A DNA stretch of 64,000 nt. It comes from Fodinibius halophilus (GTDB lineage Bacteria > Bacteroidota > Rhodothermia > Balneolales > Balneolaceae). The translations under genes and the position numbers were made by a program. Shown piece by piece: positions 33,273-34,932 of the stretch (positions are counted from its first letter, which is position 1; the number at the start of each line of letters is the position of its first letter). Where the stretch lies: positions 186,001-250,000 of the forward strand of contig NZ_JAALLS010000002.1 of the NCBI RefSeq assembly GCF_011059105.1, read 5' to 3'. The notes under the pieces were generated by a model that did no database searches, was not told where the DNA came from, and was given only the letters and a program-made list of their open reading frames with translations.

Positions 33273-33419
33273 GGACGGGTTGGCAACCCGTCCAATTCGC
33301 TATAAAGTTATGTGTAGTTATTTTAATAAATGACCCTGAGGCAGAGTCATCGGAGAGTACTTTGATTAAATAATATCGCTTTTTTACAAGTTAATAAAGG
33401 ACGGATTAACAATCCGTCC
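33273..33419. repeat. REP-like palindrome pair, unit A
   Basis: Two palindromes, GGACGGGTT/AACCCGTCC (33273-33293) and GGACGGATT/AATCCGTCC (33399-33419), separated by about 105 bp. The arms resemble the other REP palindromes of the island (GGACGG-CCGTCC), but the loops differ. Confidence 0.6.
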
Positions 33420-33435
33420 AACTTATGTAAGAGAG

Positions 33436-33537
33436 ATGAGCTATTACAAGAGAAAACTGCCACACCGGCAACCGGCGGGAGCAGAATTTTTTGTTACAAC
33501 TAGATTAAAAGGTTCATTGCCGCAGTCAGCAAGGTAG
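33436..33537 (+). pseudogene. Truncated RAYT copy (N-terminus only)
   Basis: ATG at 33436 opens 33 codons (MSYYKRKLPHRQPAGAEFF, then VTTRLKGSLPQSAR, stop). These align with residues 1-30 of the intact transposase at 33617 (MAFYRRKLPHWQPKEAEFF...RLAGSLP). The fragment runs straight into REP unit B, so all but the first tenth of the gene was replaced or deleted. Confidence 0.75.
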
Positions 33538-33608
33538 GTCGGACATCTTGTCCGACTTTTGATAAAAATAATCTACTTTAAAAAAACTGACGGACAGGGA
33601 TGTCCGTC
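33534..33608. repeat. REP paired-palindrome unit B
   Basis: GTCGGACATCTTGTCCGAC (33538-33556) and GACGGACAGGGATGTCCGTC (33589-33608), divided by an AT-rich spacer with TCTACTTTAAAA. It ends 8 bp before the RAYT start codon. Confidence 0.75.
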
Positions 33609-33616
33609 CTACTAAT

Positions 33617-34255
33617 ATGGCTTTTTATCGGAGAAAATTACCACATTGGCAGCCTAAAGAAGCGGAATTCTTTATTACTTTTCGACTAGCCGGCTCATTA
33701 CCTGTTGAGGTTATAAAAAGGCTGAAATCCTACCGGAAAGAATTACATGATGAGGTCGATGAAGAGGAAAGGGATAAGATCGAACAAGGTATATTTCGGA
33801 AATACGAGAAACTACTCGATAGTGCTCAGGTAGGCCCAACATGGTTGGAGAATAGTGAAGTAGCGGAAGCTGTTGGAAATGCGATGCATTTCTTTGACGG
33901 TAAGCGGTATGACCTATATTGCTATTGCATTATGTGTAACCATGTACATATCGTCTTTAAGCATACTACTAAGAGTAAGGATAACGATAGTTCTAAAAGC
34001 GATTATCCCATTACAAAAATCATGCAAAGCATAAAATCTTATTCTGCCTTGAAGTGTAATAAGCTGCTTAACCGTACCGGTGCTTTTTGGCAGCCCGAAA
34101 GCTATGATCGTGTGATTAGAGATCAAAATGAGCTTGAGAAAACCATACGATATGTTTTGAATAATCCGGTAAAAGCAGGTCTGGTTACAAAATGGGAGCA
34201 GTGGCCACATAGCTATTGCAAACTGGAGTATCTGGATACCTTTCGTAGCAGCTAA
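33617..34255 (+). CDS. REP-associated tyrosine transposase (RAYT, Y1/HUH family)
   Basis: A 212-residue single-domain HUH enzyme of the IS200/IS605-related RAYT group (TnpA_REP). Key residues: the metal-binding His-Val-His pair at 109-111 (CNHVHIVFKH), the nucleophilic Tyr163 in FWQPESYDRVIRD and the C-terminal YVLNNPVKAGLV. The family cuts and joins single-stranded DNA at REP hairpins and is usually domesticated, a single copy per genome flanked by REPs. Here it lies between paired-palindrome units B and C, the expected arrangement. It appears intact and probably active; two decayed copies of its 5' end lie on either side. Confidence 0.93.
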   Translation: MAFYRRKLPHWQPKEAEFFITFRLAGSLPVEVIKRLKSYRKELHDEVDEEERDKIEQGIFRKYEKLLDSAQVGPTWLENSEVAEAVGNAMHFFDGKRYDLYCYCIMCNHVHIVFKHTTKSKDNDSSKSDYPITKIMQSIKSYSALKCNKLLNRTGAFWQPESYDRVIRDQNELEKTIRYVLNNPVKAGLVTKWEQWPHSYCKLEYLDTFRSS

Positions 34256-34275
34256 ACTGAATTTTGATAACGTAG

Positions 34276-34344
34276 GTCAGACATCCTGTCCGACATTGGG
34301 TAAAAATTCTACTTTAAAAGTCTTGACGGGCAGGGATGCCCGTC
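34276..34344. repeat. REP paired-palindrome unit C
   Basis: GTCAGACATCCTGTCCGAC (34276-34294) and GACGGGCAGGGATGCCCGTC (34325-34344) with spacer containing TCTACTTTAAAA, as in unit B. It lies 21 bp after the RAYT stop codon. Confidence 0.75.
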
Positions 34345-34352
34345 CTACTTTT

Positions 34353-34612
34353 ATGTTTATTAATAGAGAAAGCTGCCGCACTAGCAACTACCGGGAGTTA
34401 AATTTTTATTACAACTAAGAGTCTGTCAGACATAGCCGAATCTACTGCGAAAAATCCAAGGTTGGCCAGATTGTGAGCTCTTTATCGTTAAACAGGTCCA
34501 CTATCCGCCTCAAGAGACTCCCAATCTGACTCAAATCGACATCTTCTCGCTACAATTCACTAAGTCCGGTAGATACTTAGGTTAAAAGGTTCATTATCGC
34601 AGTCAGCAAAGC
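34353..34612 (+). pseudogene. Second decayed RAYT N-terminus, interrupted by an insertion
   Basis: 34353-34417 aligns at DNA level with the fragment at 33436 (ATG...TTATTA..AGAGAAAGCTGCCGCACTAGCAACTACCGG, ending ...TTACAACTA) but with frame-breaking changes. The match resumes at 34582 (TTAAAAGGTTCATT.TCGCAGTCAGCAA) and runs into REP unit D. The intervening 164 bp are foreign to the alignment. Confidence 0.65.
34418..34581. mobile_element. Small insertion (about 164 bp) in RAYT remnant
   Basis: Its extent is set by comparison with the uninterrupted copy at 33436-33537. The ends read CTAAGAGTCTG and AGATACTTAG, a 5-bp terminal inverted match (CTAAG/CTTAG), and the palindrome GTCTGTCAGAC is at 34421-34431. 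It is too short to encode a transposase; it could be an IS remnant or a non-autonomous element. Confidence 0.45.
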
Positions 34613-34613
34613 A

Positions 34614-34819
34614 GTAGGTCGGACATCTTGTCCGACTTTAAAAACATAATATATTTAAAGGGACCTTTGCAAAACCAGGCAGTCATCCTGAAGGTAATGA
34701 AGGATCTCCCTTTCAACGGCAGCAGATGGATACTGGAGATTCTTCGACAAGCTCAGAATGACGAAATCAAAGGTTTTGCAAAGCCCTCTTAAAAAAACTG
34801 ACGGGCAGGGATGCCCGTC
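34614..34819. repeat. REP paired-palindrome unit D, split by a nested element
   Basis: The first palindrome, GTCGGACATCTTGTCCGAC (34618-34636), and the second, GACGGGCAGGGATGCCCGTC (34800-34819), are the usual halves, but the spacer is expanded by about 130 bp because of the insertion at 34660-34788. Confidence 0.7.
34660..34788. mobile_element. MITE-like element with 12-bp terminal inverted repeats
   Basis: CTTTGCAAAACC (34665-34676) and GGTTTTGCAAAG (34772-34783) are perfect inverted repeats. Inside them lies a second imperfect inverted repeat (GTCATCCTGAAG...GAAGGATCTC against GAGATTCTTCGACAAGCTCAGAATGAC), a sequence type dispersed in many bacterial genomes. It has no coding capacity. The TIR resembles ends of IS5-type elements, from memory only. 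Confidence 0.6.
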
Positions 34820-34932
34820 CTACTATCTTATATATAGGGTAGATAAGTTGAAATATTGGCAAGTCGTTCTACTATTTGTGTTATTAGACTAGCAATCAAA
34901 CAAATTATTGAGTTAAGTTGGTCCGCTTATTT

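Follow-up and report, generated by a model that had tools for sequence, protein, structure and literature searches.

How did an intact transposase gene come to lie between two truncated versions of a RAYT gene (REP-associated tyrosine transposase, or TnpA-REP), each fused to a pair of palindromes? The arrangement is found in a 64-kb stretch of DNA of Fodinibius halophilus, hereafter the window, which belongs to a 4.2-Mb draft genome (G000; G003 to G011 denote relatives and L numbers the loci examined). The nearest named relatives of this genome are F. salsisoli and an Aliifodinibius MAG (G007 and G009 in the genome searches). The array is best read, with a probability of about two in three, as a REPtron, the name for a RAYT/TnpA-REP gene together with the REP pairs that belong to it. 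In this reading it stands downstream of hutU, at a place that RAYTs have long occupied in Fodinibius and where they undergo birth-and-death evolution. We call the lineage of the intact gene RAYT-B, and RAYT-A the lineage from which the truncated pieces (stubs) probably derive; the two types of REP palindromes are named accordingly. The features are as follows, in window positions.

33273-33293 (C12:219270-219293), unstranded: left-most type A REP, a perfect palindrome GGACGGGTTGGCAACCCGTCC (hairpin of -10.1 kcal/mol)
33399-33419, minus strand: type A REP GGACGGATTAACAATCCGTCC, immediately 5' of stub 1
33436-33533, plus strand: 5' stub 1, probably of RAYT-A (MSYYKRKLPHRQPAGAEFFVTTRLKGSLPQSAR)
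33534-33612: type B REP pair 1, with a REP at 33534-33556 (plus strand) and an inverted REP at 33589-33612 (minus strand)
33617-34255, plus strand: intact RAYT (RAYT-B), 212 aa, with NHVH at residue 108, WQ at 158 and Tyr179 in YVLNNP
34272-34348, plus strand: type B REP pair 2, downstream of RAYT-B, with a REP at 34272-34294 and an inverted REP at 34325-34348
34353-34613, plus strand: 5' stub 2, probably of RAYT-A, frameshifted and interrupted, with the same 3' junction as stub 1
34418-34577, unstranded: repeat of about 160 bp inside stub 2
34614-34823, plus strand: type B REP pair 3, with a REP at 34614-34636 and an inverted REP at 34800-34823
34660-34788, unstranded: MITE-like dispersed repeat of 129 bp, lying between both REPs of pair 3 and splitting it

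The first-pass annotation of this DNA had described an intact HUH transposase between REP pairs, and truncated 5' RAYT copies at 33436 and 34353 fused to the next REP. Both descriptions hold: RAYT-B matches Y1_Tnp and has inverted pairs on both sides, and each of the stubs passes directly into GTAGGTCGGAC. The stop codon of stub 1 is the TAG supplied by the GTAG of the adjoining REP (33534), and stub 2 ends at the same codon region, also against a REP. The array extends to 34823, slightly beyond the end given previously (34819), and includes two parts that had been missed, the repeat of about 160 bp in stub 2 and the 129-bp element in the last REP pair.

The intact gene is a RAYT/TnpA-REP. Its product matches the Pfam Y1_Tnp profile above the cut-off (E 1e-5), scores 78.1 bits, just short of the cut-off of 80, with the NCBIfam model 'REP-associated tyrosine transposase' (REP_Tyr_transpos), and has a profile match to PDB 4ER8 (TnpA-REP), which is also the best Foldseek match of its predicted structure (mean pLDDT 78; E 6e-7). 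It has an HUH domain of the IS200/IS605 type with a catalytic tyrosine; N108, H109, H111 and Y179 are invariant across 9 relatives, and GTAG-tagged palindromes flank the gene on both sides. Cleavage of single-stranded REPs at GTAG was demonstrated for TnpA-REP of E. coli (PMC8266576) and, by analogy within the family, RAYT-B probably cleaves single-stranded REP hairpins at the same motif. The genome encodes a second RAYT of this subfamily (53%; C8:54764-55375, L053), whose flanking palindrome, GTAGAGCGATTTGGCAAATCGCTCTAC, is a different one and resembles that around a broken RAYT of G003 (L160).

The palindromes around RAYT-B are specific to the locus within the window. The three type B REP pairs are inverted GTAG-tagged palindromes, GTAGGTCGGACATCTTGTCCGAC ... 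GACGGGCAGGGATGCCCGTCCTAC. Perfect GTAG-tagged palindromes with a stem of at least 8 occur five times in the 64 kb, all five in the locus, against 0.002 expected in flanking DNA (mononucleotide shuffles, which keep base composition only), and the type B consensus pattern gives 3 matches versus 0 expected in dinucleotide-preserving shuffles. One inverted REP carries a paired change (GGACA...TGTCC versus GGGCA...TGCCC) that preserves the hairpin. These pairs have the organisation of REPINs: two inverted REPs with the GTAG ends outward, able to form hairpins (z of -6.4 and -3.1). The REP pairs annotated previously are correct around RAYT-B, but the palindromes before stub 1 (33273-33293 and 33399-33419) are of another type, the second of them resembling those upstream of the RAYT at L099 and of a stub in G010.

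REP copies also exist elsewhere in the genome. The type B pattern has 8 matches in G000, which are confined to a single 344-kb contig; G007 has 11, G009 has 3 and the nine other congeners have none. Its occurrence tracks the presence of the RAYT group of RAYT-B at the hutU site. Copies are few, and some are dispersed, at C12:46358 and C12:48844, without a nearby RAYT. A third REP-like family, GTAGCACGGTCATCC(C/T)TGACCGTG, has about ten copies in G000 (C1, C5, C11, C23 and C29).

Are the stubs pieces of the intact gene? This had been proposed earlier: the stubs would be truncated copies of the N-terminus of RAYT-B itself, produced by local duplications in which the start of the gene and the REP moved together. 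The alternation of stubs and REP pairs in a single orientation across the locus would be expected from such a process. However, stub 1 and stub 2 are only 59% and 56% identical in DNA to RAYT-B, no more than RAYT-B is to its paralog in G009 (59%). They are closer to each other (79%) and to a third stub found at L051 in the same genome (86% for stub 1, 73% for stub 2), and stub 1 is 66-68% identical to the RAYTs of G009 and G007. A tree of the N-terminal DNA places the three stubs with the RAYT of G009, which lies at the same site in another species (support of 89/86, below the 'starred' level), and RAYT-B with a RAYT start at L051 ('fragB', 94/84). The motif LKGSLP is common to the stubs and to the G009 and G007 RAYTs, where RAYT-B and most others have LAGSLP. 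Identities, tree and motif together make it most likely that the stubs come from a RAYT lineage other than RAYT-B, in agreement with the other palindrome type upstream of stub 1 and with the presence of a similar stub in a sister species that lacks RAYT-B. An approximately unbiased (AU) test on this short alignment (about 99 columns) does not reject the grouping of the stubs with RAYT-B (p 0.165). The stubs are only about 100 bp long, and their link to the G009 lineage consists of 32 residues and a shared upstream palindrome. On these sequence comparisons the stubs are probably what is left of another RAYT that occupied the site earlier, and we regard their derivation from RAYT-B as improbable. 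No 3' remains of RAYT-A were found in G000.

The site takes several forms in relatives. The gene hutU is present in 11 of the 12 genomes of the genus, and the order POT transporter, hutU, RAYT is found at L098 (F. salsisoli) and L099. In G009 the site holds a single intact RAYT, preceded by type A palindromes and followed by a REP-like pair. That of F. salsisoli has an intact RAYT, the closest relative of RAYT-B (89/82); beyond this gene lie two degraded RAYT pieces, interspersed with REP pairs. In G010, the sister by the hutU tree (100/100), type A palindromes precede about 12 codons of a RAYT stub and there is no RAYT-B. Seven congeners have no RAYT at hutU, and in G004, G006 and G008 the site is empty, hutU being directly followed by an MFS gene. 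This rejects a purely ancient decay fixed in all relatives, a possibility raised in the first-pass annotation for the case that REPs were missing elsewhere. Additional RAYT pieces alongside the gene are present in 2 of the 21 loci of the subfamily that we examined, those of the window and of F. salsisoli.

The simplest reading of these intact, stub-bearing and empty sites is that RAYTs have long occupied the region downstream of hutU, with copies arising, duplicating and disappearing over time. RAYT-A and RAYT-B could instead have arrived separately at a REP-rich hotspot, in which case their arrangement would be coincidental. The patchy distribution of RAYTs has been ascribed to horizontal transfer and loss (PMC6006769), and the seven congeners without a RAYT at hutU would fit such a history. 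Yet RAYT-B pairs with the F. salsisoli gene of the same site, and the stub with its upstream palindromes also occurs in the sister species, which makes separate arrivals very unlikely. A small probability must also be left to parallel insertions at the hutU site in place of one old occupancy.

The copy at L051 (C12:9127-9590 of G000), 210 kb from the window locus, repeats the order of its parts: type A palindromes, a stub, a type B REP pair and the first 13 codons of a RAYT-B-type gene, after which the DNA is unrelated. The left edge of the copy falls at a palindrome, and six congeners that share its flanking genes lack a RAYT at this position. The L051 stub is split by the same 129-bp element as is found in the window (positions 1292-1420 of L051), here with TGATA direct repeats. 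Since this third copy contains both a REP pair and a RAYT start, the two kinds of DNA must have moved together at least once, which gives partial support to the joint movement proposed earlier. As the usual unit of movement it does not stand: none of the 18 other dispersed REP or REPIN sites that we examined has a RAYT piece attached, indicating that the usual unit is the REP pair. The movement of RAYT-containing DNA to L051 is also a point against our preferred reading, as a simple birth-and-death process at one site does not require it.

Such movement could be explained if a block made of a REP pair, a RAYT 5' end and a second REP pair were a non-autonomous mobile element mobilised by RAYT-B, comparable to a MITE or PATE derived by internal deletion from an IS200/IS605 element. 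The three copies with one internal junction, the position of one of them 210 kb away, with its edge at a palindrome and in a place devoid of RAYT in six congeners, and the predicted fold, which would link RAYTs to IS200/IS605 transposases, are all compatible with this explanation. A PATE or MITE would recur as the same bounded unit at several unlinked sites, but there are only three copies at two sites, and the one at L051, having type A palindromes and a RAYT-B start, is not the same bounded unit. The 18 dispersed sites hold REPs alone, and among 147 relatives we found no dispersed stub unit, the only matches being the copies of the genome itself and short matches to REPs or RAYT 5' ends. We consider a mobile element of this kind unlikely. 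A separate candidate, in which the whole L051 island would be a single stub-carrying transposon, was rejected: its 35-nt repeats (492-526 and 1848-1882) have a direct orientation and no clearly terminal position, and to the left of the stub (400-1160) the DNA is an intergenic patchwork of dispersed repeats with over 50 matches in the genome. Because of this patchwork, the mechanism of copying cannot be read from the L051 junctions.

Another locus bears on how copies may be made. At C12:46358-48907 of G000 (L166, 4304-7477), a gene for a UvrA-like ABC protein (758 aa) is bracketed by two REP pairs that, together with about 70 bp of flank, are nearly identical. At the corresponding position of F. 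salsisoli (L172) there is a single REP pair, and the UvrA-like gene is absent. A doubled REP pair around a gene is what recombination between REP pairs would be expected to produce, and this favours recombination as the origin of the local duplications in the window. That local duplication took place there follows from the identical 3' junction of the two stubs with the REP pair; the part of the earlier claim that fails is the origin of the duplicated pieces from the intact gene.

Two small unrelated repeats also interrupt the array. The 129-bp element has terminal inverted repeats (GGGACCTTTGCAAAACC and GGTTTTGCAAAGCCCTC), is flanked in the window by TTAAA direct repeats and has at least 38 further copies in the genome (93-99% identity). 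The repeat of about 160 bp has an 88% copy on contig C89 of the same genome and relatives in G009, G005 and G011, the last with 14 partial copies.

We propose the following scenario, whose order of events is not unique. An older RAYT of lineage A, with type A palindromes, would have held the hutU site; it would persist intact in one congener and as a similar stub in the sister species. A second lineage, RAYT-B, with type B REPs, is intact here and retains its catalytic motifs. RAYT-A would have been cut down until about 32 codons were left, fused to a REP pair of type B, probably in one event since all three copies share this junction. A duplicate of the block of stub and REP pair would subsequently have arisen on the far side of RAYT-B, and a segment with palindromes, stub, REP pair and RAYT-B start would have been copied to the site 210 kb away. 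The small unrelated repeats would have inserted later into the decaying parts. Recombination or template switching between REP palindromes most likely made the copies, but single-strand transposition catalysed by a RAYT is possible.

The system is of a known kind, RAYT/REPIN, and is mostly an ordinary, if instructive, record of gene turnover. RAYTs are seen as single-copy, domesticated transposases that move REPs and not themselves (PMC3116915, PMC6006769). The presence of a REPtron-like block at a second site is the unusual point of this system, and if RAYT-B made the L051 copy it would be rare evidence of a REPtron able to travel. No paper on tandem truncated RAYTs accompanied by REPs came up in a literature search, a weak negative as subscription literature was mostly outside its coverage.

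The closest described group is subclass 2.4 (group 4 of Bertels; Quentin et al. 2018, PMC6006769), which RAYT-B appears to fit by its catalytic motifs: NHVH (pattern NH[IFV]H), WQ and YVLNNP (pattern YIxNNP, Y-x-x-NNP, with I to V as one conservative difference). The protein length (212 aa here, mean of 194 aa in the subclass), the Bacteroidetes-like hosts and the GTAG-tagged REPs on both sides also agree, and insertions of REP DNA into tnpA-REP genes have been described for this subclass. It disagrees by the distance from HUH to the tyrosine, 68 residues against a reported median of 88, in a region published as variable in length. The published insertions of REPs are in frame, between HUH and the tyrosine, whereas the stub described here is cut off by a REP at about codon 33 and the downstream part of its gene has been lost.

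As in REPINs or BIMEs (Bertels and Rainey 2011, PMC3116915; Nunvar et al. 2010, PMC2817692), two inverted GTAG-tagged palindromes lie within about 80 nt, beside the RAYT and in a small number of other intergenic regions. The 8 type B matches on one contig contrast with the tens to hundreds of copies in Pseudomonas. The site also resembles the REPtron 'orthoswitch' (PMC3733652, PMC3686654), where orthologous RAYT sites of related species have different REP types, except that in this case a single genome combines, at adjacent positions, two REP types and remains of two RAYT lineages. At this one site a first RAYT lineage has decayed and a second is still intact, and each is associated with a REP type of its own. 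REP-RAYT hybrid blocks have been duplicated, and congeners show the site empty, with a stub or with an intact gene, which makes it a small and testable system for the mutual replacement of RAYTs and REPs.
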